Positions 48,004 to 64,000 of a DNA stretch of 64,000 nt are shown here, piece after piece. The translations under genes and the position numbers were made by a program. The notes under the pieces were generated by a model. It was not told the origin of the DNA. It worked only from the letters and a program-made list of their open reading frames with translations, and did no database searches. This DNA comes from Macrocystis pyrifera (Eukaryota; Sar; Phaeophyceae; Laminariales; Laminariaceae): assembly GCA_031763025.1 (NCBI GenBank), contig JASSKH010000010.1, forward strand, positions 2,604,001-2,668,000. Direction: 5' to 3'. The stretch's first letter is position 1. Every line of letters begins with the position of its first letter.

Positions 48004-50966
48004 AACAAAAGGACAGCGAGGGAGGATGCGAGACAGCTCTTGCGCGTCTACCCCCGAGATAGTACAGCGTGGAAGAAGTTGAGATCCGCCTGTGCGAATC
48101 TGCAGGAAGTGGTCGCCGCAGGAGTCAATGCGTATTTTGAAGAGTACCTCGCTGAAACGAGAAATTCCTCGCGAGTTCTGATCAACGAGGGTTCTACAAG
48201 CACCTGAAGAGTACGGTAGGGTTGCAAGGTACGAAAGCGAGGAGTGAACAGTTTATCATGGACGAGGATGGCACGCTGTTGCGGGATCAAGCGCGAATTC
48301 GTGAAAGAAGGGCGGGGCACTACCACAAACTATTGAACACGAAATCGCTGAAACTTGACCCCACGATCATCGACCTAGTGCCACCACGACCGCTGAAACT
48401 ATCCCTTGGAAATGAACCATCCATTGACCAGATGATGGAAGCAGTGAAGGGTATGTCAAACTGGAAAGCCGTTGGACCAGATGGTCTCCCGGTCGAAGTA
48501 CTGAAACTTGACCACCCCGCTTTCGTGCAGTATTTTCACAGTATCCTTGTTAACGTTTGGGTAACGGGAGAAGTCCCCCAGCAAAGGAAAGATGCGATCA
48601 TAAAAACCCTTCATAAAAAGAAGGATAGAACTGATTGCAACAACTACAGAGGCATTTCGCTTGTTGCTCACGCAGGCAAGGTGTTGCTGAAAATCGTTGC
48701 GTCCCGTCTAAGCAGCTACTGCGAGACCGAGCATATACTCCCTGAAGAACAGTGCGGCTTCCGCCCCGCACGGTCAACAGTCGATATGCTGTTTGTCGTG
48801 CGCCGGTTGCAGCAGCTCGGGCGGCAGAAGAAAATCCCCCTGTACATGTGCTTCATCGACTTGCAGAAAGCGCACGACTCTGTCGACCGAGAACTGTTGT
48901 GGGAGGTACTCACACGCCTTGGTGTACCAACCAAGATGCTCACAATCATTCGCAATTTTCACGAAGGCATGCGGGCTCGCGTGCGTACGGATGACGGTGA
49001 ACACTCGGACTGGTTCAATGTAACCCAGGGGCTGCGGCAAGGCTGCGTACTATCGCCGTTACTGTTCAACGTGTTCTTCGCCGCTGCGTTACACATCGTG
49101 CTGGTACGCCTCAGCAAAGACGAATGCATCGTAAGGGATTTGGTTCATCTCGAAGAGGACAGGGTTGTCGGAAAAGAGGAACCGTTGGCATGCGTGCAAA
49201 GGGCTGTGTGGGGCATGTTGTATGCAGACGACGCAGGAATAGTCTCGAAGTCGGTGGAAGGCCTTGCAAGAATGATGACAGTCATCGTGACTGCCTTCGA
49301 AGCAGTAGGTCTCACGGTATCCGAGAAGAAGACAGAGACGATGCTCCTACGAACACCGGATCAGACGTTTACCACCTCACCGCTCGCGATCGAAGCTGCA
49401 GGCCAAAAGTATAAACAGACGACCCAGTTTTTGTACCTAGGAGGCATTATCCACGAGAACGCAGACCTCTCCTTCGAAATCGAGCGACGAATCCGTCTGA
49501 TGCGGGCATGCCTCAAACGGTATGGTCCGGAACTGTACGATAGGACGAACGCACCGCTTAGTCTGAAAGTCCGGATGCTGAAGGCCGAGGTGATTGAGAC
49601 CTTGCTGTACGGTTGCGTGACGTGGACCCTCAATGCGGACCACTTCGCCAAGCTTCGATCAGCCCACCACGAAGTCCTTCTGCGAGTCATTGGTTTCCAG
49701 CGCCGACTACGCACCGACCACACCACCCTCTCGTATGCGAAGGCGCTCAGGATAACACGATGCGAAAGTATCGAAACGACCATCCGTAAACGGCGACTCT
49801 TCTTTGCGGGGGCTGTGGTGCGGCAACACGAGGGGCGATTGCCCAGTCGGTTGATGTTCGGGACGATCGCTGGTGGGGGGAGCCCGAAACCAGGCGGGCA
49901 GCCCAAGACTTGGCCTAGGGCCATTGCTGAGGACCTTAGAGTGTTCAAAGCCACCGAGGGATCAACGGAAGACTCCCCCTTAGTCTTTGGAGTTGGGACC
50001 GCACTGTGGCCCACTGCAGCAAAACAGACGGGAAAGTGGTACCGGGGAATCCTCGAAGAAGCTGAACAGTTCATGGGCAGGTGGCACGAGGCTGAGGCAA
50101 AGCTGAGTAGACAGCGCCGTGCATCCGCTGCAGGTAGTGTAAGAGGGAATGGGGTTAGGGGTAACAGCAGGAGGGGTAGAAGGAACACCGTACAAGTGTA
50201 TGGGGGCAGGGGGGGGAACAGGAGGAGTAGAAGGGAAACCGCAGTAGAAGAGAGTAGCAGAGAGATCGCAGATAGGGTAGCAAGGTACCAGGCCGACTAA
50301 TAGGTTGAACTTTTCTTTGCTACTCGTACCGCCAACTGCTGCGGCCGTTCGGTATGCATTCTGATTTTTTTCCCTTCTTATCCTTATGAAAGAAGTACTA
50401 CATAGTGGGTGGGTGACGAGCGTATTTTGGCCCACTCACTATTGCTCTTTTTACTTAGTTAAGTGTTCACCGGGATGCATAGTCCCCTTTTTCCTTCTCG
50501 TATCTTTCCCCTTGCACGTCCCTTTTGGCTCATGCTCGGGGTAAGTATGTATGTGTCTGAGCTTTGGCTTCCCATTTTATTTATTTATTTGGGATTCTTC
50601 TCCTTTTCTTTTTCTTTTTCTTGTTCTTTTTCGGTTTGGTTTCTTCGTTGCTTCTCTTTCCTTATGGTGTATTTTGGTTGCTGGCGTATGTATGTATGTT
50701 GTGTCGGCCGCACCTAGTGTGAAGGCATGGTATTGCGTAGGCTATTAATGCATTACGGTGTGTTATCTCTGTGTCGCAGTCTGTGACCACAGAGCTCGTA
50801 TCTTTCTAGGGTGAAGAATCAGCACGGACACTGGGCTTGCTGGATGTCGACGAGTAGAAGAACGGTTTAATGTGAAGAACACACACACACAAACAGCCCT
50901 TCTCCTTGGAAACAGCTGAACAGCCAAACAACCTTTCTTCTTTCTTCTTCCGCAAACTGCCAACCA
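48004..50966 (+). mobile_element. LINE-A insertion, 5'-truncated, flanked by a 17-bp target-site duplication
   Basis: ATAGACAGCTCTTCGCA is present at 47987-48003 and again at 50967-50983. Between them lies a LINE lacking the endonuclease domain. The single long frame and its 3' untranslated region fill the insert. No poly(A); the 3' side has an (AC)n run near 50880-50891 and T/C-rich DNA. Confidence 0.85.
48222..50300 (+). CDS. LINE-A reverse transcriptase ORF (692 codons)
   Basis: RNA-directed DNA polymerase for target-primed reverse transcription. Motifs in order: [16 protein letters not shown] (near residue 80), [70 protein letters not shown] and the catalytic LYADD. Then [10 protein letters not shown], a thumb with [14 protein letters not shown], and [20 protein letters not shown] near the end. 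The start is arbitrary, because upstream DNA (about 48005-48190) continues the protein in another frame. The catalytic core is uninterrupted, so this is the youngest LINE in the window. Confidence 0.9.
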
Positions 50967-51749: not shown

Positions 51750-52051
51750 ATTTTGCTCGTTTTCGGCTGCCGCCGCTGCTGCTGCTGCTGTCAGCGCCAC
51801 GCCATGAGTGCTGCTGCTGCTGTGCACCTGCTTCTCCTGTGCACTCGCTGCTGCTGTAGTGCTGCTGCGTTGTTGCCGTGCTGTGCACCTGCTGCTCCTG
51901 TGCACTTGCTGCTGCTGTATGTAGTGCTGCTGCGTTGTTGCCGTGCGTCATGCTGGAAGCGTACATATTTTCGGATCGTCAATTCCGTAGGTTTTGCGAT
52001 GGCGGCATACCAGGGTACATGCTTTTTTTCTTCCATATTTTCATATCTTTG

Positions 52052-52098
<47 letters not shown>

Positions 52099-53160
52099 AC
52101 GCTGCGGCGATTCGTTGCGGCTTCTGCTGCTTTCTAATGCTGCCGCAATATCCACCGAATGTTCGTATGTACTCGGATTACTGTTTTTCTTGGTCGTTTT
52201 TGTACCCAAATGGTTCCTTTTGATACGTGAAAAAATATTTTTGTCGTTTTGCTCCTGCATTTTGCGTACGTACTGCAATTTCTCGTTTTTGGCTTTGGTT
52301 ATTTTCATATATATCGTTGCTATGCTGCTGCTGTGGTGCTGCTGCGTTGTTGCCGTACATCATGCTGCACTTGTGTGTGTACATATTTCGGTATCGTCAA
52401 TGAAATTCCATAGGTTTTGCGAGTGCGGCATACCAAGGTACATACTTGTTTTCTTCCTTACTTTCATGTCGTTGCTATGCCGCTGCTGCCAACGCGGATT
52501 ATTGTTTTGGTTGGCCATTTTTGTACCCAAATAAATGTTTTTTTTTTATACGTAAAAAAAAAATATTTTGGTCGTTTTGCTCCTGCATTTTGCGTACGTA
52601 CTACTTTTTCTCGTATTTCGTATTGTTGTTATGCTGCTGCTGCGTTGTTGCCGTACAGCATGCGGAGGTGGGTCTATAGTGAGGTACCAAAAATACTTTT
52701 CGGACGGCCTCGGGGTACATACTTTTTTTCTCCCCTTCTTTTCATATCGTTGCTATGCTGCTGCTGCTGCCAACGCTGTGGCGATCCGTTGCTGCTTCTG
52801 CTGCTGCTGCCGCTGCTCTGCTTTTAGTGCTGCCGCAATATTCACCGAATGTTTGTATGTACTCGGATAATTGTGTTTCCTGGTCGTTTTGTGGCGCTGC
52901 TGCGTTGTTGCCGTACATCATGCTGGACATGATTTGTGTATATATTACACTTAAACTTGTGCGTGTGTACATATTTCTGTATCGTCAATGATTTTTTTTG
53001 TGGTGCTGCTGCGTTGTTGCCGTACATCATGCTGGACGTGATTTGTGTGTGTACTGTACTACACTTGTGTGTACATATTTCTGTATCGTCAATGAAATTA
53101 CGTACTTGCTGCTTCTGCTGCTGCTGCTGCTGCCGTCGTATAGCAAGCGATTACGTACTG
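51750..53160. repeat. Intronic tandem array with CTG tracts
   Basis: Diverged units of about 250-400 bp carry GCTGCTGCGTTGTTGCCGTACATCAT-type, ACATATTT-GTATCGTCAATG, CATAGGTTTTGCGA and GGTCGTTTTGCTCCTGCATT blocks, plus pure (CTG)n (52056-52096). At least five unit starts are visible. Confidence 0.85.
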
Positions 53161-53921: not shown

Positions 53922-54508
53922 TGGGCTATGTCGCCAATTAATTGCAGTTATATGTACACGAAACGACGGAATACCCACTGCGAAGGAAAGCCTTGTATAT
54001 ATTATTGTTATTGCCCTCGACGAAATTGTGAAGCGGAGACCGCTCTAGGGTAGTGGTAAGGGTAGTGGTAAGGGACGCAGATTGTTCTGGCAGCTGGAAA
54101 GCAGTGCTTCGCTTCTTCTGATTTAGATCTTCTAATTGATGGCGAGAGCTGAGGAGGTGCTCTGGTAGTAGAGAAGTGAGAGGTAGGGGGGCGGGACTCG
54201 ACGCCCAGATATACTCGTCCCACCCCACGCCACAAGCTCTCCTAAATTCCTCTTATCTGATGTACGCCTACAGAACTTTCCTATGGCTACCGATCGTTCC
54301 TCTGCTAATATAAGAATATCTCACTTCGTGGTCCTATCTGCGTTAAGGAACATTACTCTCATCTAAGGGGTTTTCCGCCCTAGGGAACATTCCTAAGAGA
54401 ACGTTACTCTCAACTAACGGAATATCCGCCGGGTTAATCCATTCTTTGGATTATTCTCGTATTCGTGAGACTACAAGACTGCAACGTATTATCTATATCT
54501 ATAGCCCA
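53922..54508. mobile_element. Possible solo LTR, 587 bp
   Basis: Ends TGGGCTAT and ATAGCCCA are an 8-bp terminal inverted repeat of TG...CA type. Flanking 5-mers (GGCTT, TGAAT) do not match, and no second copy is in the window, so this is tentative. Confidence 0.35.
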
Positions 54509-56088
54509 TGAATAATCCACCCATATCACATCAGCCCACCCTGAATAGTCGTATATGCAGACCATAAGATGGTCGGAGGGTGATGACAAAGTTCATCCCA
54601 AACGGCCAGGAAAAAGATGGTCGAAGATGCGGCTATTCGAAACAAAAGAAATGAGGCTATAGATCCCCCCACATCTCGTAATAAAACCCAAACACTACGA
54701 AGAGGGGGTGTTCGCTGAGAACAACCACTGAAAGGGAGACTAAAGGAGAGAGATACACAGAACTCAAAGCAGAGGCGAAAGGAGAAATCACCCAAAATGA
54801 AAACAAAGAAAGACGAACGCAAAAGGAGACAGAAACCGAAACGAAGGCTGAAGAAGAAAACGAAGACCGAAGTGAAGGCAAAAGAAGGACGTACAAGCGT
54901 ATTACTGGAGCCATTGTCTGGGGCCCAAGGAGGTACGAAAGGGTTGTTCGCTGAACCGGGTTGGCAAACGAGGAAACTCTAAAAAGGAGACAGCGATCAC
55001 AATTCAAAAACATAAATATATATCCGCTAGGCCCCATGCCTTGTCTTGTGGCGAAGGTCCTAACATGGTAGACATCACGCGAGACAGAAGGGACACAGCA
55101 AGAGTGCTATGAGGGCTGCGTGTACTAGGGACTACTAAAACCGAGAGACGGAACGAACAACGCAGCGTCTCGGAGACCTGTTCGTGGTGTGAACAATACC
55201 AGCAAACGTAGCAAGGTAGGCAACTCAACAAAAACAAACTCAAAGATGGTGGCGGCAAGAAAATCAGCAAGAAAATCGGCCTAATGCGTGCAGTTCGAAG
55301 TTGTAGATAGCGCGGGACCCAAACACTAGCGTGTGCAACTCGGTCAACCGGGGTGACATCAAACGTGGTGTCGTTTACCAGAGGACAGAGGGGTGTGCGG
55401 AATACCGGACAAGAAAGAAAGAAGAAGAAAAGGGAAAGAGAAAACGAAATACCATCGGGACCAGAAAACAGACGAAAAGCTGGACACAGGTCAGGAGAAA
55501 TCGGTCATGTCCGAACCGCTTATGTATGGCCGATAACTCAGCGGCCTTCCGGGGCGGCAATGCTATCGGGACCCTACTTGTCAAACATGGAAGAAACACG
55601 GGTGAGCTGGAAGCTTGATATAGTCTTAGCTCGAGGACCGTCTGAAACACGGGTCGGCGGAAGTCGACTAAGGTCAGAGTACAGCTCAGGCTACAACACG
55701 ATTTTACCTCGGCGTGATATCGCCGATAATTGGCTGTAGGCTAGTGGAGTACAAACACAAATGCAAATGAAGGTATCGCTACGAGTCAGTGGCCTGAACG
55801 TAAGGAGGTTACACGGAGCCGTAGGCGATAAGAAGAAAAACAAACGGGGGGGGGGGGGGGGGGGGCGATGATACTCCCAAACATACCCAAAAAAGAAACA
55901 TACACGGCCTCGGATCGGTAGCCAACACGGGGTCGGTCGAGCGATACCGGTGGCGGTAGATGGAAACAAACACTCCCAAGAGTATGACTGCTGATGACTA
56001 TTGAAGACTAACCCTGAAGAACTACTCTTAAGATATTGCAGACTAACCAGAACCAAATACCCAGAACTAACAAAAGACTAAACTAAGA
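54509..56088. other. Unassigned DNA next to the Ty3/gypsy element
   Basis: Could be its 3' untranslated region and LTR, but I found no repeat of the 63.6-64.0 kb sequence. Includes a poly(G) run at 55844-55866 and purine-rich DNA at 54720-54860 and 55405-55470. No conserved frame. Confidence 0.35.
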
Positions 56089-59000
56089 CTAACCAGGGGG
56101 GGGGAGTGGAAACGGTGGGGGTTCCGCGGGACACATCAGAGTTCCGCAGCACCCCCACGTGCTAGGGTTCCATTCCCAGGCGTTGAAGACACCACGATCC
56201 GTATACGGCGTTCCGTGCTGTAGTGTAGCGGGCGGGTTGGAGGTCGATCTTGATCGGGCCGGGGTCGTCCGGGAACCGGACGATGTAGGAGCTTTCCGGT
56301 GAAGGCTCCGGCGGAGTTCCCGAAGAGGCGTCAGGGGGTGAGCTGTGATGCCCAGCCACCAAAGGCCGTCGCGCGCCTTGTACCATATGTGTGCTCCGGA
56401 GGGTAGGATGGTGGTGCTGAAGTTGTGGAGCCAAAGGCTGCGGGAGACCAAGGCGTAGCCTGGGGCGAGGAAGATTTGTCCTTGAGATCGTGCCAGTTCG
56501 CGGTGAGCGGCGCCGATGCGCATCTGGCGGTAGAGGCGGTTCGTCTGGCGGTGCTGGGTTGGTGATCGTGACCAGTACAGTAGGATGTGGCGCCGGAAGT
56601 GTTGAAGGTCCAGCTCGCGTTCCCAAAAGGGGCTGAGAAGTCGAGTCCAGTGAGTCTCGTACAGAACGGCGATGACCCCGCCGCGGCCGCGTACGAGTTG
56701 ATGGCCAGTGATCTGCTCGACCTCGAGGCGTTCCGGTGGAGGAGTGACGTCGTCGACGGTGACGTGGTAAGGTGGGGACTTGGCGGCAGAAGCTGTGAGC
56801 ACGTATGTAGTAAGGTCCGCGGGCAGATGCTTGGGGATGTCGCTGGTGTCTTCGGGGTTCCGGCAAGGTTTGCATCGTTGGACGGAGACGCGTGGCTTGG
56901 AGTCTCGTCCCGGAAGGTCGGATGGAAGGTCGAGGAAAAGTAGCTTGTCGTGAAGGGGGCGATTGTCGGGGGTGTTTGAGGCGGGCGTTGGCCCTGCGGC
57001 GAGGACCTTGAAGGGGCCATTCCAGTTCAGGGAAAGCTTCGCCTTGAGGACGGTTGCGTCGGTGCCCTTTTTGACGCCTTGGCGGATGGTTGAGGCGGAG
57101 TTGTAGACCCAAACCCAGCGGCCTACGGTGAAGGGGGGGGATGCTAGGAGGGCGGCCATGATGGGCGCGTTGCGGCGCTGAAGACGCGAGACGGTGAGTC
57201 GGTGTAGTTCGCGGACGAGGGAATAGGCGCGTCGTTGTCGGTCGGTGGCGAGGTTGATGTAAACCAGGTGATCGCGGTCCAAGCTTTGGTGACCGCCGAT
57301 GTTGTCGGGTTCGAAGACCGAGAGCGGGAGGCGAGGAAGGCGGCCCATGTGGATTTCGTTAGGTGCAAGCCCTGTGGCGGCGTTCACGGCATTGTTGTAG
57401 GCCGATGACACGTGTGGGAGCAGCACGTCCCAGTCGGTCTGCTGTTCGTTGCCAACCACAGAGAGCATTTGGGCCAGTACGTGGTTGACTCGCTCGACGC
57501 CGCCGTTGGTGCAGGGGTGGTAGGAGCTGGTGTTGACCTTGTGGATGCCAAGGCGTTCGTAGACGATGTTCGCAAGCTTGGAGGTGAAGTGTAGTCCGTT
57601 GTCGGAGAGAAGTGTAACCGGGCACCCCCAGAGAGGGATGTACTCGTTCAGGAAGATGTCGGCAGTGCCGGCGGCCGTGAACTGCGCCGCTGAAACGGCA
57701 TACATATCGGCGCGGCGGCTGAAGCGGTCTGTGAAGAGGAGGATGTCGATGTTCCCGCGCGGCGTGAGTGGCAGGGGCCCGAAGTAGTCGACGCTGACGG
57801 TGATGCCAGGCCCGTTGGGCAAAGGAAGAGAAAGGATGGGCCAACGAATGGTGTGCCGGGAGGTCTTCCGCGCCTGGCATTGAAGGCAACCGCGGATCCA
57901 CCAGCGGACGGAAGAGTCCATGCCAATCCACCAAAAGAAACGTGCCAACATGCGGACCGTTCGGGTGAATCCCAGGTGTAGAGAGGTGGTGGCGTGGCAT
58001 GTGTTCAGCACCCAAGGGCGCATTAACATTGGCACGTAGACGCGTGGGGTAGAGGGGGCGGGTGGTGGTAGGCTGTTCCCAGTTGAGGTTGTGGGTGGTC
58101 GTTGAACCAGGAGGGTGGTTTCGTCGTCGGTACGGTGTAGCCTGCTTTTGGAGGCAAGAGTGAGGACGTCCGAAAGTTGTGGGCGCCGGGCCGGGGGGAT
58201 GAAGTCCAGGAGGTCGTGCGGCGTGGGGGTGGGGGAGTCCAACGACAGGAAGCGGATGGTGGCGCAGCACAGGGGCTCCGCGCGTTGTTGTCGCGCCCAG
58301 TCTTTGTAGGTGTAGTGCTCGACGCAGGCGAGGAGGTAGGGGTCGTCATCGGGTTCGACGACGGGCTCAAGAAGGGGCACTGACGGTGGTGTTGGTGCCG
58401 GCGGAGAGGGCGTTGTTGATGGGGTTGCTCTTCGCGTAGTGGGCGCCAATGGCTTGGGTGGCGGTCGGCGTCCAAACCGATAGTCGGCTGTAGGCCGAGG
58501 GGTTCCCGCGGCAGCGGCGACGCGATGACGGGTCCGAGAAGATATCAGACCTGGAAGGGCTGGTGTCGTGGCGCCAATGGGGGCGGCGGAGAGACGACGG
58601 ACGGCATGGAAGCCGAGCCTGGAGGAGCTCCGGTGTTCACGGCGGCATTCTCGGTGCCGGCAAGCTGTCCGGTGGTGGAGTCGCGGGTCGCAATAGGCCC
58701 GATGAAGGTATGGGTTGCGGGGGAAAGGGTGGGGTGCTCCATACGTGGTCCGTGTAGGCGAAAGTCGCGGAAGTCGTCGTCGGTGAAGGGGAGCGGCTGG
58801 ACGGTTGGGATGGGTCTGGAAGGGGGGGAGACGAGCCCACTCAAGCCGATACCCGGGGTGGAAGGGTCGTTCGGCGCGAAGCCGCAGGGGCGGATGAGGT
58901 AGATGCCGACGGTGTCGGGGCCAGTGAGGCGGTTGCGTCCGGTGCGGTCGGCGTCGGTGGCTGGTTGGGGAAGCCGGGAGAGGAAGTCGGCGTTGCCGTT

Positions 59001-61023
59001 GGCCGTGCCCTTCCGGTACTCCAGCGTATAGGTGTACGCTGAAAGGAGCTCGAGACGTTGGGCTGTCCGGGGGTACGGTGATCTTGAACGGCATGAGCGG
59101 GCACGAGCCGAAGTCAGTCTTGGTGGTGGAGAAGACGTCCTGGAATTCGCAGAGGACGTCGCCCAGGTTGTTCATCACCGATGGGGTCCATCCAGAACCG
59201 CGACGGTCGAAGTCGACGTTGCGTAGGTGTGACGGCAGACGTTGCCAGAGGTTTAGGAAGCTTTCCCGTTGATCAGCGTTGAGGCGTGCAAGGAGCGGTG
59301 GGCACGGGGCTTTTGGTGCGGTAGGAGGGTCGTCTGTGGATGGGCTCTGGTCGGCCACGGGGATGATGTCGTGGAGGGCATGTACATCCGGAATCGGAGA
59401 GGGATGGGGAGGGGCCAAGGAAGGGTGTCCAAGGGTGGAAAGTGGTACCTGTAACAGTGGGGAGCAGGAGGTTCCGAGGAGGTCGCCCGGCTCGAGATCG
59501 GTAGATCCAGATAGTGGGACCGTTTGGTATCCGTCCGAGACGAAAATGGCCGTGTCGGAAAGGGGGTTCTTGCGGGGGAGCATGTTCACCATGTAGTTCC
59601 CGGTAAATGCTGGAGCGCCTGACTGACGCGCCAGGTTGACCTTGACGAGCTTGGGGGTGGAGGAAAGCGAAATAGCTTTGTTGCCGGCGAATCGGAGGTG
59701 GTAGACGTCGTCAGTGGAACGGTCGTCGGGAATGAATGCTGAGGCTCCGTTGGGGTCATGGTGGTTCAAGGAGAGCTCACCGCGGGTTCGCCGGGGAGGT
59801 TGGTGGGGGGGGGTGGGCTGTTGCTGGAGCGTGGTATACGAGCGTTGCTCGAAGCGCATCCAGCTGTCTCGTCCCAGAAGGATTGGGTGCTGCATGGTTC
59901 CTGCAGGAACTACGCAGGCCCATACTGCCAGGGCAGCGGTGGGGGACTGGAGGCGCATAAACTGGATGCTTAAGCAGATGGAGACGGAGGTGGAGAGGGG
60001 GGTTGAAGTGCCGAAACCTCCCCATGAACGGGGGGAACTGTGCCATTCGCACGCATCGGTGGCTGCCCGGGAAGCCTTCAGTTGTTCCACCGAGGTTGCG
60101 GTGATAAACGACTGGGGCGAGCCGGTATCGAGCAGTGCCACGAGTTCGCGGCGCGTAGTGGCGGTGGGGCCGCTGTGCACGAGTACTTTCGTCGTGAACG
60201 ACGCGTCGTCGACGGTAATGATGCCGCTTGTAAGGCATGATCCGTGTTCTGGTATCGGCGGGCGGCGGGTAGGGAGGTGGCTGTGGACTGCGGTGTTGAT
60301 GGTGGACCCTTGGGCAAAGTGGCTGCTCGGGTAGGCGTCGGGGGTAGACGGCGGTAGGAGTGGCCCAAGTGGTGAGTTAGGCGGTTGCCATGGAGGGGTC
60401 GGGCTTGTTTCGTGGATGCCGTCGGCTGTGGGGGAGACCCGGGTGGAGTCGGTGGGGGCGGGTGTTGGCTCCGGGTCGTGAAGATGGGGGGGAAATGGAG
60501 GTTGGGCGGAGCTATTGGCGCCGAGGCTTTCTCGAACGTCCATCAGTATCCTGCCAAGCAGATTCCGACCACGCCAACGCGTCGGGTCGCAGGCGTCCGG
60601 ATGGTCGGCCTTGAAGTCTATGCCCCAGATGAGGTCGTGTGGGCTGGCCTCGGCGATGTGCTTGTCGTCGGTTGCTATTAGCTCCTGCCGTAGCTCCGGG
60701 TGTTGGCGGAACTTGGAGAAGTTAATGTAGAGGACGATGGTGTAGCGGTGTCGCTCCCTGACCATTTCGTCGAAGTCGGAAACGGTTCGCCCAAGTGCTT
60801 TTTGGCGGGCCGGGTCGCGGGTCGCTTTGATGCGGCGCTCAGTTGTGATGTCCCCGAAGAGCGCGGCCTTCTGCGCCATCACCATCTGCTCAGCGCAGTT
60901 GTATGTGACGCCATCGTGTTCGATGTCGCACAGGTACCACTGCGAAAAGACCGAAGAGGAGTCCCAGAAGAAGTGGAAAGATGAGGCTGCCTCTGCGGTG
61001 ACGTGTGCAGTTGATGGCGTCTT
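56089..61023 (-). CDS. Ty3/gypsy pol-type frame: NADAR - protease - (deleted RT/RNase H) - integrase - chromodomain
   Basis: One open frame starts right after the TAA at 61024-61026; its first ATG is at 60885, inside the NADAR domain. Protease: ALLDTGSPQSFI. RT N-terminus: FQDVFSTTKTDFGSCPLMPF. Integrase zinc site: CHATTSLHLG...CLQC. Catalytic core: VSVDYFGPL, LLSDNGLHFTSK and GGVERVNHVL supply D, D and E. Chromodomain-like: LEVEQITGHQLVRGRGG...HILLYW. A further 130 residues follow, ending in a Pro-rich tail. Between about 59045 and 58500 the frame is displaced: the true RNase H end (YTYTLEYRKGTANGNADFLS) is one frame over and ends in a stop near 58545. The uninterrupted length is partly due to GC-rich, stop-poor sequence. 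Confidence 0.8.
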   Translation of the reverse strand, partial: KTPSTAHVTAEAASSFHFFWDSSSVFSQWYLCDIEHDGVTYNCAEQMVMAQKAALFGDITTERRIKATRDPARQKALGRTVSDFDEMVRERHRYTIVLYINFSKFRQHPELRQELIATDDKHIAEASPHDLIWGIDFKADHPDACDPTRWRGRNLLGRILMDVRESLGANSSAQPPFPPHLHDPEPTPAPTDSTRVSPTADGIHETSPTPPWQPPNSPLGPLLPPSTPDAYPSSHFAQGSTINTAVHSHLPTRRPPIPEHGSCLTSGIITVDDASFTTKVLVHSGPTATTRRELVALLDTGSPQSFITATSVEQLKASRAATDACEWHSSPRSWGGFGTSTPLSTSVSICLSIQFMRLQSPTAALAVWACVVPAGTMQHPILLGRDSWMRFEQRSYTTLQQQPTPPHQPPRRTRGELSLNHHDPNGASAFIPDDRSTDDVYHLRFAGNKAISLSSTPKLVKVNLARQSGAPAFTGNYMVNMLPRKNPLSDTAIFVSDGYQTVPLSGSTDLEPGDLLGTSCSPLLQVPLSTLGHPSLAPPHPSPIPDVHALHDIIPVADQSPSTDDPPTAPKAPCPPLLARLNADQRESFLNLWQRLPSHLRNVDFDRRGSGWTPSVMNNLGDVLCEFQDVFSTTKTDFGSCPLMPFKITVPPDSPTSRAPFSVHLYAGVPEGHGQRQRRLPLPASPTSHRRRPHRTQPPHWPRHRRHLPHPPLRLRAERPFHPGYRLEWARLPPFQTHPNRPAAPLHRRRLPRLSPTRTTYGAPHPFPRNPYLHRAYCDPRLHHRTACRHRECRREHRSSSRLGFHAVRRLSAAPIGATTPALPGLISSRTRHRVAAAAGTPRPTADYRFGRRPPPKPLAPTTRRATPSTTPSPPAPTPPSVPLLEPVVEPDDDPYLLACVEHYTYKDWARQQRAEPLCCATIRFLSLDSPTPTPHDLLDFIPPARRPQLSDVLTLASKSRLHRTDDETTLLVQRPPTTSTGNSLPPPAPSTPRVYVPMLMRPWVLNTCHATTSLHLGFTRTVRMLARFFWWIGMDSSVRWWIRGCLQCQARKTSRHTIRWPILSLPLPNGPGITVSVDYFGPLPLTPRGNIDILLFTDRFSRRADMYAVSAAQFTAAGTADIFLNEYIPLWGCPVTLLSDNGLHFTSKLANIVYERLGIHKVNTSSYHPCTNGGVERVNHVLAQMLSVVGNEQQTDWDVLLPHVSSAYNNAVNAATGLAPNEIHMGRLPRLPLSVFEPDNIGGHQSLDRDHLVYINLATDRQRRAYSLVRELHRLTVSRLQRRNAPIMAALLASPPFTVGRWVWVYNSASTIRQGVKKGTDATVLKAKLSLNWNGPFKVLAAGPTPASNTPDNRPLHDKLLFLDLPSDLPGRDSKPRVSVQRCKPCRNPEDTSDIPKHLPADLTTYVLTASAAKSPPYHVTVDDVTPPPERLEVEQITGHQLVRGRGGVIAVLYETHWTRLLSPFWERELDLQHFRRHILLYWSRSPTQHRQTNRLYRQMRIGAAHRELARSQGQIFLAPGYALVSRSLWLHNFSTTILPSGAHIWYKARDGLWWLGITAHPLTPLRELRRSLHRKAPTSSGSRTTPARSRSTSNPPATLQHGTPYTDRGVFNAWEWNPSTWGCCGTLMCPAEPPPFPLPPPG
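60523..60981 (-). other. NADAR (YbiA-like) domain fused upstream of the retrotransposon protease
   Basis: About 150 residues with the full NADAR layout: FHFFWDSSSVFSQWY, YNCAEQMVMAQKAALFGD, DPARQKALGRTVSDFDE, RHRYTIVLYINFSKFRQHPE, IAEASPHDLIWGIDF and GRNLLGRILMDVRESL. The conserved Glu of YxxxEQ, the Trp-Gly of DxxWGI and the NLLGxxLMxVR helix are all present. Known members act on ADP-ribose-type or riboflavin-pathway N-glycosidic bonds. The DarT1-associated branch removes ADP-ribose from guanine in DNA. Activity here is inferred from motifs only. Confidence 0.9.
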
Positions 61024-63553
61024 TTATGTTGGGGGTGGAGGGCGACGATAATTATTCCTATCGCCGCCTGGCGTCGACGGAGGTAGAGTCAGCAACGATC
61101 GAGCGGTGCTGACCGGAACCCTCGTGTTCGCGGGGGGATTGCTCGGCAAAGCCGAGGTACCGGGGCGGTCCTCGCCGGAGCTTATAAGCCGGGCGGGACG
61201 ACCCTCAAGCGCCCTATCGTCCAACTTTTGGAGAACAGGGGCATACTCGCTAGGGGATGCCACACCTGGGGTCCGTGTCCACGCTTTGCGCGAAGCAGGC
61301 GAGGAGGACGGGTCAGGGGGCTCAGGGCAGACCCTGGTCGACGTTGGTCGCGAGTCTTCCGTATTTAAAACGGGACTGTCCCTCGAGCTCAGGGACAGCG
61401 GTGGTGTCAACACCGTGGCAGCTGGAGGAAGCCTGTCGTTCGCGGGTTCAACGCTGTCACAAGAAATGCGCGCATGCTGGAACATGCGCGTATGGAGCGG
61501 CCAATATGAGGCAGGCTCAGGGGGCGATGGCCCGGCAGACGAAACAGTAGTTTCGTGTGAACCGGAGCCGCTGGTAGCCGTAATCGTCGAGACGTTTCCC
61601 AGGGTAGCAACGTCTGGGGTCTCGGCAATAGTCGGCAAGCAGCGTTGCTCACCGCCAGAAGACGTCGAGTGGAGCATCCCGGTGGGGCTCGGGGTCTTGG
61701 CCTCCTCCCGCCCACACCTCAAGGCAATCACTTGGGCAAGATGATCAGTGCTTGAACAAGTGGCTGTGAAATGGGCTGGGGTAAGGAGGGGGGCATTGGG
61801 GGGCAGGGGTCAGGTAGGCGTGGTGCACGTGATTTACTCGTTCGTCCTGGGAGCCTCGGGTGCTCGCAGTAGATGCTGTTGGTGGAGATGCGACAGTTGC
61901 TCCACCATCGGCTTGTCCGTTGGTGCGGAAGGTGCCCGGCTGCCGTTGGTTCGGGTGGGTACTTCGAGTTGGTGCTGCCCATCCGCATGTTCGCGAGGGC
62001 GGCAGGTGCGGAAGTATTGGTCGCGGGGCTATGCACCGTCAATGCTGAAGACGAGGGGGCAGGCTCGGTGCGTTGTCATTGTAACTGTTGCCCTGGCGAC
62101 TGTCGGTTGCCGTTGTCGTATGACCGGCCGTTGTTGTGGCGCCAGTTGTCGGAGCGCCCGTTGTTGCCGCGGTAGTTGCGGGAGTGGTTCTGGTTGGAGC
62201 GGTTGCTGTTGTAGTTTCCGCTGCGGTTGTTGTTGTTGTTGCCTCGACGGTTGTTGTCGTAGCGGTTGGAGTGTCGTTCCAGGTTGTGCTCGTAGTGTCC
62301 ACGGCGATATAAGAGCATCCTCTGCTGCCATTGGCGGTAGGCGTGTCCGACTACCGGGCTGAGGATGCCAAACGTGTTGTGAAGCGCAGGGGGCAGGTCT
62401 TCATACTATGTCCGTGCTATTGCAGTTGGGGCAGTGGTCACCGTGAGCTCGTAGGGCTTGGGCGTGGGACACCACGACGTTCCGCCTCCGTCGTGGGCTC
62501 CGTGTTGACTCTCGTCATCAGGCTGCGCGCTCGTGAGGAGCGGGGCGCTGTCGTCGTAGGGGGCGCTGTCGAGGTGGGAAGGGGCGGTGTCGCCGGCGAT
62601 GGCGTGTCCGTCGTGGGGCGGGTGGTTGGGGGTGTCGGGGGAGCGGGTCGAGACGGTTGGGTTCCACACGTAGCCGCGGCCGGCGTTCGAGTGAAAATAC
62701 CGTGGCTCGAGTAAACGGGTATGGGCGGCCCCGATGAACTCGGAAGAACCACCCTCGGTGGCGGCGCGGGCCAGAACGAAGGTGATCGACGGGTTACAGT
62801 CGGGTGTGAAGAGCCGCCATACACGGTGTGCCTCTAGCGAGACATCCGAGGCCGTCGCGTCGCGTGTACTCTGCATCCAGCGGAGCTTAGCGTCGAGGAA
62901 GACCCAGTCATTGGGCTCAAAGCCGAACGTCTGCGGGTGCCGGTGCCCAGTGGGTATGGGGGCTGGCAAGGGTTGGGCCGGTAGTGGTGCCTGGGACATT
63001 GTGGTCCCAGCTTGGTTTTTGGGAGGCTGGGAGGTGGTGGTCCTAGACATCGCGGCGGAAGTATAGGGTGCCCATGATGAGGAGCGAACGGCTGCGATTG
63101 GGCCGTGGTGGCCGCGGTCGCAGCTGTAGTCCCATAGGTGGAGTCGAAAGGATTCGAGGAAGGGGTGGGGGACGGCGGTATCACGAGTAGGAGGTCAGCG
63201 CCCTCTTTCGCGAGAAGGAGGAGCTGCTCGTGGTGGGCTTTGAGGGCCGCACGGCGCTCACGGAGGGCCGTGGGATCGCCTTGGTAACGCCCCGGATTGA
63301 GAGCCAGGGTGGAGGTTTCCTGTGCAGAGACCTCCGGGTTGATGGTAGGCCCGGCACTGGTCGTGCCTGCTCCCATTGGAGAAGATCCCGGTGTGGTGGG
63401 GTGTAGCGTGAAGTCGCTCAGAATGGTTTCGAAGCCAGGGGTGTCGTCGTCGGTAGCGCGAAAGGCCCTTGTGGCATACCTCGCCTCGCGGGGGTGGGTG
63501 GCGTCGGAGGAGTGGGCGCCGGGAATGTTGGTGGAGGAAGCTTTCTCGGCCAT
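61024..63553 (-). pseudogene. Ty3/gypsy gag-like region, broken by frameshift and stops
   Basis: ATG at 63553 opens MAEKASSTNIPGAHSSDATH; the frame (62834-63553) hands over near 63060 to 62406-63050, which has TFGFEPNDWVFLDAKLRWMQ, IPTGHRHPQ and EFIGAAHTRLLEPRYF. A TAG at 62406 interrupts it. The same frame continues as YEDLPPALHNTFGILSPVVG and an Asn/Arg/Gly-rich nucleic-acid-binding segment (RRGNNNNNRSGNYNSNRSNQ) to 62076. A Ser/Pro/Thr-rich stretch in the pol frame runs from 61731 to the TAA at 61024. Gag is called from position and composition; no capsid homology is claimed. Confidence 0.6.
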
Positions 63554-64000
63554 GTTTAGGTGGGTAGAACGCTTGTACTGGGGCGGGAAAAGGTTTGGTG
63601 GAAGATGGAGAGGGTGGGTGGATCCAGGCTTGGATCAGGGTAGGCGGCTACAATATCAACAAACCGATCTAAGAGAGAGAAAGGAGTGACGGTAAAGACG
63701 TACGATAGGGGGGTGTTGAGATTGTGCGTGCCACGATTTTAGTGCCCGTCGAAGGATATTTTTATAGTTGAGGGCATCTAACTAGCGCCAGGCGCCTCGC
63801 GTTTGATTGACGGTAGTCGCGCCGGGGTCACTCAAGTGATATCAGTAGAACAGAATTGAACAGAACTCCGTCTGAAATGCCCAATGTTCGTAATGATAGC
63901 AGGGCGTGACGATTACAGAGCGTGGGCAGTGCAAGACCTTTCGTTGGGATACAAATAAGAGTACCCGTAAAGAAAATGTGCAGGTCGAGGCGGGAAAAAA
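63554..64000 (-). other. Probable 5' leader and LTR part of the Ty3/gypsy element
   Basis: Includes a CTATAAAAATATCC promoter-like motif and a CTCTCTCTTAG pyrimidine run on the minus strand. No primer-binding site could be matched to a tRNA by eye. Confidence 0.4.
63752..63770 (-). promoter_or_regulatory. TATA box-like element upstream of gag
   Basis: Minus strand CTATAAAAATATCC lies about 205 bases upstream of the gag ATG at 63553. That is a suitable place for an LTR (U3/R) promoter, but the LTR limits are not established. Confidence 0.4.

Follow-up and report, generated by a model that had tools for sequence, protein, structure and literature searches.

Why does a brown-algal retrotransposon carry, inside its polyprotein, a domain of the kind that processes ADP-ribose? 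In bacteria, ADP-ribosylation of nucleic acid is known from toxins and defence. The question arose from a window of 64,000 nucleotides of Macrocystis pyrifera DNA, the whole stretch that was analysed. For eukaryotic NADARs the role is stated to be unclear in excerpts of PMC11125620. A preliminary description of the window had proposed a complete NADAR/YbiA-like domain in a Ty3/gypsy polyprotein, recognized by the motifs YNCAEQ, DLIWGI, and NLLGRILMDVR. All three motifs were indeed found in a minus-strand frame, where the domain forms part of an open reading frame of 1644 amino acids (56092..61023, minus strand). The Pfam profile that the description had suggested, PF08719, matched significantly (155.4 bits against a cut-off of 35.1, E = 2e-45, profile positions 1-162 of 163) and placed the NADAR domain, of the YbiA type, at 60523..60972 on the minus strand. 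We rejected a reading on the plus strand, as the one plus-strand frame translated had none of the motifs.

The structure model of the domain had a pLDDT of 93.6. The only PDB matches at E <= 0.001 were 8bau, the Phytophthora nicotianae NADAR with ADP-ribose (the best match), and YbiA 2b3w, each with a TM-score of 0.81 by query length. Residues are numbered here after the P. nicotianae NADAR, following excerpts of PMC11543638, and were compared in 43 element copies (16 of family A and 27 of family B). R79, R93, E125, D130, and W133 were retained in all 43, and E43, K50, K75, and W89 in 42 each, the single losses being in L049, L041, L037, and the window copy, respectively. Thus the catalytic residues, on which the preliminary description had made its reading depend, are present (E125 in 43/43 copies, K50 in 42/43). 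Four of the 43 copies contain a stop inside the domain. Across the phage and prokaryote rows of alignment A2 (n = 35), E43, K50, K75, E125, D130, and W133 were invariant; the site aligned with D86 was variable, and R93 varied outside the transposable elements. The P. nicotianae protein, itself of the YbiA subfamily, thus shares its nine pocket residues from E43 to W133 with the element copies. It differs in being a stand-alone enzyme, is 29% identical in structural alignment, and has Y84 where the element NADAR has F; the D86 site also differs. Excerpts of PMC11125620 and PMC11543638 give Glu at the E125 position as the YbiA hallmark, Asp in BC4488, and His in the phage gp30.3 type. Glu occupied this position in every element copy and in all 35 phage and prokaryote rows. 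The Pfam score, this residue, and the predicted YbiA fold assign the domain to the NADAR superfamily and, by prediction, to the YbiA subfamily. A DarT1-linked antitoxin of the BC4488 type would need Asp at the E. coli C7 D171 position, where all 43 element copies have Glu. The ADP-ribose pocket is conserved, in the predicted fold, across many copies.

The domain resides in a minus-strand LTR retrotransposon of Ty3/Gypsy type, delimited by its LTR pair and 10,628 bp in total (54027..64000 within the window), which extends 654 bases beyond the window's right edge. The 3' LTR (504 bp, TG...CA, 54027..54530) and the 5' LTR (514 bp, 141-654 bases to the right of the window end), both on the minus strand, are near-identical, with two substitutions and three indels between them, and a 4-bp target duplication, ATTT, flanks the element. 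The combination of TG...CA ends with a target duplication, which we used as the LTR criterion for Ty3/Gypsy, comes from the window copy only; 19 other 10-kb stretches, each shorter than the element, showed no LTR pair. The open frame at 56092..61023 contains NADAR, a protease region, and integrase, without a reverse transcriptase (RT). Pfam was run on the part of this frame from 60885 down. It gave the integrase zinc-binding domain (Integrase_H2C2, 57862..58035, E = 4.3e-15) and two sub-threshold matches, one to the integrase core (rve, 57514..57813, E = 9e-5) and one to the Ty3-type Peptidase_A2B in the aspartic protease region (59776..60141, E = 0.077), all on the minus strand. DarT was not detected by Pfam in the window's Pol frame. 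Further upstream, the Pol N-terminal linker stays open in the same frame (61027..61809, minus strand), and Pfam gave no match there. Two overlapping minus-strand frames at 62409..63634 form the presumed gag region; no Pfam match was obtained in the tested frame 62409-63194, nor in the corresponding frames of L043 (737 aa) or L034 (656 aa).

The preliminary description had located NADAR in frame between the gag stop and the protease. It is in frame, with the protease region downstream, but the TAA at 61024..61026 (minus strand) is a nonsense change within the Pol N-terminal linker. Comparison of 16 family-A copies revealed CAA at this codon in 12, TAA in three (the window, L026, and L028), and a gap in one (L047), which rules out a gag stop here. 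Two further changes were identified by comparison with A2 and the element copies: the window has R at 60757..60759, where W (W89 in P. nicotianae numbering) is otherwise found, and D at 60616..60618, the second G of WGIG elsewhere (both minus strand). In each case the usual residue was present in 41/41 other A2 rows and in all 42 other element copies examined. At a deletion junction (59054..59056, minus strand) about 1.17 kb has been lost, comprising RT and most of RNase H, so that the Pol order protease-RT-RNase H-integrase is absent from the window copy; this deletion was common to 10 of 12 family-A copies examined. The window copy is a broken, recent insertion and belongs to a subfamily without RT that arose from one deletion. 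Lacking RT, with a nonsense codon ahead of NADAR and with W-to-R and G-to-D at two positions that are otherwise kept, this particular copy lends no support to the function that had been proposed, namely undoing ADP-ribosylation of its RNA or cDNA.

In the same 537-Mb genome, we scored 150 further NADAR matches out of 1264 candidates from a first look, all 150 above the cut-off, and the element protease region was downstream of NADAR in 30 of 30 loci checked. That a NADAR gene landed by chance in a single element copy, the outcome against which the preliminary description had set its own reading, is refuted by these counts, and we give it practically no credence. For the family the Pol order was obtained piecewise, with NADAR, RT, and RNase H sharing a frame (L033, L034), integrase further on (L036, L037, L050), and a protease match below threshold. 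When copies were selected by integrase, 15 of 40 had no entry in the NADAR match list; since that list also misses the window's own NADAR, these 15 say nothing on presence or absence of the domain.

Two element families, A and B, carry NADAR. Between L034 (A) and L033 (B), identity was 50% without gaps in NADAR, 77% in RT, 58% in the protease region, and 23% in the post-NADAR linker, and the best match between their N-terminal linkers spanned 20 residues (E = 0.014). For NADAR, pN was 0.34 against a pS of 0.73 (dS near saturation). By these comparisons, NADAR has been kept since the two element families diverged. The domain could instead be a hitch-hiker, captured once and tolerated as a linker segment with no gain for the element: copies without RT and with stops still spread, and within-family dN/dS was moderate (NADAR 0.45 in B and 0.55 in A; protease 0.40 in B and 0.56 in A). 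However, the identity and the intact pocket persisted across A and B while the adjoining linkers lost most of their similarity, and pN is well under pS. Such tolerated carriage is therefore disfavoured, and we regard it as very improbable. The within-family ratios carry little weight because the copies were drawn from a NADAR-ranked list; all except the window copy were chosen by NADAR score, a choice that flatters NADAR. In eight long B copies dN/dS was 0.63 for NADAR versus 0.38 for RT.

Families A and B grouped together, weakly, in both trees (83/77 and 86/75), and neither tree separates a bacterial from a phage donor. P. nicotianae contributed the only stand-alone eukaryotic NADAR, in the first tree (83/77); there it and E. 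coli YbiA had long branches, and both were omitted from the second (86/75). With family B as the only query, the closest named phage relatives were found in Pseudomonas phage ZQG1 and Stenotrophomonas phages AXL_1 and DLP4 (identity up to 53.5%), whose YbiA-like proteins are stand-alone phage genes, unlike the element domain. The closest phage relative carries the annotation 'GTP cyclohydrolase', as an annotation only. No fusion of NADAR with a retroelement came to light in virus contigs or prokaryote genomes: L033 protease, RT, or RNase H pieces were absent at E <= 0.01 from all 66 loci encoding a NADAR relative (46 from IMG/VR and 20 from GTDB), in non-exhaustive scans that each used two peptide patterns, with flanking sequence of at most 5 and 1.5 kb.

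The best explanation, which we advance tentatively, is that NADAR acts as an N-glycosidase on ADP-ribose-type adducts during retrotransposition. The domain would be made as part of Gag-Pol, freed from the polyprotein by the element protease, and carried along with the particle. There it would take ADP-ribose or a related ribosyl adduct off nucleic acid, be it the element's RNA, the tRNA primer, or cDNA, allowing reverse transcription and integration to proceed. The window copy would be a defective passenger, and the RT-less subfamily would be mobilised in trans by relatives with RT. Counting against this reading are the within-family dN/dS values, which for NADAR are close to those for protease, the losses of pocket residues in single copies, the stops inside the domain, and the variability at the D86 site and, outside the transposable elements, at R93. 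NADARs of eukaryotic RNA viruses are argued, in excerpts of PMC9503650, to act mainly on macromolecular ADP-ribosylation. The kelp genome holds at least one PARP-like exon, a match confined to a single exon (profile 8-58 of 199) in a search that matched none of 14 control genomes and hence had no positive control. Among the literature matches listed for brown algae and ADP-ribose polymerase, none, by its listing, was about algal enzymes. Removal of ADP-ribose from RNA or cDNA might serve as anti-defence, an unproven role. The retention of an ADP-ribose-processing pocket through the A/B split points to an encounter between this chemistry and retrotransposition in brown algae, and the element NADAR is a defined domain open to assay.

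Both families also scored far above the cut-off of TIGR02464, the equivalog-domain profile of riboflavin-intermediate N-glycosidases (139.2 and 149.5 bits versus 73.7). Like the TIGR02464/COG3236 enzymes, the domain might act on a small metabolite, either riboflavin-pathway intermediates or free ADP-ribose derivatives, and so alter the NAD or flavin state of the cell, or it might serve to clean up RNA ends. The annotation of the closest phage relative is in line with this, as are excerpts of PMC9503650, in which soluble ADP-ribose derivatives and RNA repair are proposed for viral, above all phage, NADARs. However, guanosine-ADP-ribose is a substrate of C. crocatus YbiA and of other NADARs that have been tested (excerpts of PMC11125620), and a polyprotein fusion with RT and integrase would better suit a nucleic-acid substrate; we consider a metabolite enzyme possible but rather unlikely. 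Weak chromodomain-like matches, both under the cut-off, followed the integrase in L033 (E = 0.0072) and L034 (E = 0.084), with none in the other frames tried or in the window's C-terminal frame. They make chromatin targeting plausible in this Gypsy lineage, and NADAR could then be a binding or structural module that holds ADP-ribose or nucleic acid without catalysis, for example guiding the particle or pre-integration complex to ADP-ribosylated chromatin. The near-universal retention of catalytic E125 and of K50, which is required for hydrolysis, argues against such a module and leaves it improbable.

The preferred N-glycosidase reading concerns a fusion already described for Ectocarpus (PMC12477816), the only paper that, judged by the listings, seemed relevant to the fusion among the matches listed for NADAR, on its own or with retrotransposons or Gypsy, and for YbiA with retrotransposons. 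Gypsy-12_Ec32 and its NADAR-carrying lineage (PMC12477816) resemble the kelp elements by their published description; the kelp case differs in its 537-Mb genome, in having two families with about 50% identity between their NADARs, and in its RT-less subfamily. A C-terminal chromodomain behind the integrase is a mark of the Ectocarpus lineage, and the kelp candidates for it are the two sub-threshold matches in L033 and L034. A NADAR-like domain in a retroelement is also found in Tx1 LINEs of Crassostrea gigas, which differ in being non-LTR elements of an animal host with the domain in ORF1 (PMC12477816). New here are the kelp occurrence, the two families, the subfamily that carries NADAR but lacks RT, and a proposed link to Esi0017_0056 that can be tested. 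This stress-induced Ectocarpus protein of 391 aa has DUF1768 (= NADAR) at 132-291, and its closest relatives are two Ectocarpus proteins, then prokaryotic ones (PMC7922944). Like the element Pol, it is brown-algal and has other sequence on both flanks of NADAR; it differs in that PMC7922944 presents it as a host gene, with two introns predicted, and does not use the stem 'transpos' in its main text. We hypothesize that Esi0017_0056 is connected with NADAR elements. A broader scenario, in which a particle-borne nucleic-acid de-ADP-ribosylating enzyme defeats a host barrier, RT-less derivatives parasitise the lineage, and Esi0017_0056 either is a fragment of such an element or was co-opted from one, is doubtful as a whole. 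NADAR genes listed as 'conserved unknown' in annotations of brown algae call for caution, as they may be retroelement fragments.

The reading frame with a NADAR domain noted in the preliminary description is real and lies on the minus strand. The domain is complete, as the Pfam model PF08719 matched over its whole length at 60523-60972 (-) with an E-value of 2e-45. Translation and Pfam searches placed it together with a protease-like region and an integrase in one open frame of 1644 aa (56092-61023, -). Self-comparison of the right part of the window and the next 5 kb of the contig revealed the 3' LTR at 54027-54530 (-) and the 5' LTR 141-654 bases past the window end (-). The LTR pair has TG...CA ends and a target duplication, ATTT, giving a total element length of 10,628 bp. 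In this self-comparison the two LTRs differ by three indels and two substitutions, and their similarity suggests a young insertion. Direct repeats rich in CTG, interleaved, 41-69 nt long and each present in two to five copies, were seen at 52023-53121, approximately 0.9 kb away from the 3' LTR. A 714-aa open frame at 48156-50297 (+) with a strong reverse transcriptase (RT) match (PF00078, E 2.9e-33) is another retroelement near the Gypsy element.

The genome (537,376,219 bases, 223 contigs) was searched for NADAR with Pfam, yielding 1264 first-look candidates. All 150 candidates that were scored exceeded the cut-off, and this number is a lower bound; the lowest had 160.4 bits and the window's own NADAR (155.4 bits) is absent from the list. 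The element protease region adjoined NADAR in 30 of 30 returned loci, 7 of which were contained within longer stretches fetched afterwards. The 150 matches and this gene order show that the domain is not a single chance insertion, an explanation raised at the outset. Nineteen 10-kb stretches sorted into two families, the window-like family A (n = 11, NADAR 91-95% identical to that of the window) and family B (n = 8, 46-50% identical). NADAR, RT, and RNase H share a single frame of 1231 aa in locus L034 (family A) and of 1696 aa in locus L033 (family B). In a single family A copy, L043, the Pol frame shares 61 nt, in the -1 frame, with a presumed gag frame of 737 aa that gave no Pfam match.

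The element copy in the window is defective. A TAA codon precedes NADAR in the window, L026, and L028, and was initially taken for a gag stop; this reading did not hold, as the same codon is CAA in 12 of 16 family A copies (L047 has a gap). The window NADAR carries R and D where W and G are found in the 42 other element copies and in the 41 other rows of an alignment, A2, of element copies with 35 phage or prokaryote sequences. Compared with L034, approximately 1.17 kb comprising RT and most of RNase H is missing from 10 of 12 family A copies (window 54027-64000, L035, L037, L038, and L043-L048), which form a subfamily defined by one deletion junction; L034 and L036 retain the stretch. The junction is the same within a base in nine of the ten; L047 has a break in its upstream alignment, and its downstream block begins at the common junction. 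The 40 best matches to the window integrase DNA were 98% identical (the window itself 100%). RT-less spacing, with NADAR at 2.90-2.93 kb, was found in 15 of these (the window by its own coordinates and 14 from the 150-match list) and RT-bearing spacing (4.09-4.13 kb) in 10; the remaining 15 had no NADAR in the 150-match list, which is a lower bound and not proof of absence. Since both spacings occur among these matches, both forms coexist, and from their coexistence we infer that the RT-less form is probably copied in trans. The integrase is equally close to that of the window in RT-bearing and RT-less copies.

Between L034 and L033 the NADAR domains align gap-free at 50% identity, compared to 23% for the linker after NADAR, 58% for the protease, and 77% for both RT and RNase H. 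The N-terminal linkers of L043 (360 aa) and L033 (228 aa) gave a best match of 20 residues (E 0.014). Values of pN/pS between L034 and L033 were 0.34/0.73 (NADAR), 0.30/0.74 (protease), and 0.14/0.68 (RT); dS was saturated or nearly so. Within families, dN/dS is biased by sampling on NADAR score; it was 0.45 for NADAR and 0.40 for protease in family B, 0.55 and 0.56 in family A, and 0.63 for NADAR vs. 0.38 for RT in eight long B copies. For variants found in at least two copies, NADAR dN/dS was 0.30 (B) and 0.69 (A, 12 vs. 5 changes). Taken together, the between-family identities, pN/pS, and within-family dN/dS indicate that NADAR has been kept across the split of families A and B, under weaker constraint than RT.

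Pocket residues, in the Phytophthora nicotianae numbering of PMC11543638, were transferred via an alignment to the structure 8bau and compared in 43 element copies (16 A, 27 B), all except the window found by NADAR score. R79, R93, E125, D130, and W133 are present in 43/43, so the catalytic E125, the possible loss of which had been considered, is retained; E43, K50, K75, and W89 are each present in 42/43 (exceptions L049, L041, L037, and the window). A stop lies inside the domain in 4/43. Across the 35 phage or prokaryote rows E43, K50, K75, W89, E125, D130, and W133 are invariant; either R or K occupies the R79 site and F the Y84 site, R93 varies, and the D86 site shows no conservation. The AlphaFold model of NADAR (pLDDT 93.6) had two PDB matches at E ≤0.001, 8bau and YbiA. 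The NCBIfam model TIGR02464 (riboflavin-intermediate N-glycosidase) fits both families, and the anti-phage NADAR model NF053876 scored far under its own cut-off. In the last NADAR helix (window residues about 154-156), outside the pocket residues named in PMC11543638, 6 of 16 family A copies have VRA and the rest VRE, possibly reflecting two sublineages.

Phage records with a match numbered 673; the closest named relative of family B among them is a Pseudomonas phage ZQG1 protein (53.5% identical), which on raw identity is nearer to family B than family A is. A and B were joined in both trees (support 83/77 and 86/75, neither starred). A single capture of NADAR is probable, favoured also by the common position of the domain within Pol and by the 77% identity of the RTs.

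The main claim of the preliminary description, a NADAR-Gypsy fusion, is borne out; the fusion is already in print for Ectocarpus (PMC12477816), and the claim is therefore not new. The observation of the element stands, and an anti-defence role of its NADAR is a testable hypothesis. A PARP search gave one exon-sized match over the cut-off (35 bits vs. 26.7, profile 8-58 of 199), and none of 14 control genomes gave a match. No word starting with "transpos" occurs in the main text of PMC7922944, and the main text of PMC12477816 leaves Esi0017 unmentioned. PMC7922944 describes the stress-induced Esi0017_0056 (391 aa, NADAR (DUF1768) at 132-291), whose nearest relatives are a pair of Ectocarpus proteins, followed by prokaryotic proteins. 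Known here by this published description, Esi0017_0056 is proposed as a candidate element-derived or recruited protein, and may be a NADAR-Gypsy fragment.
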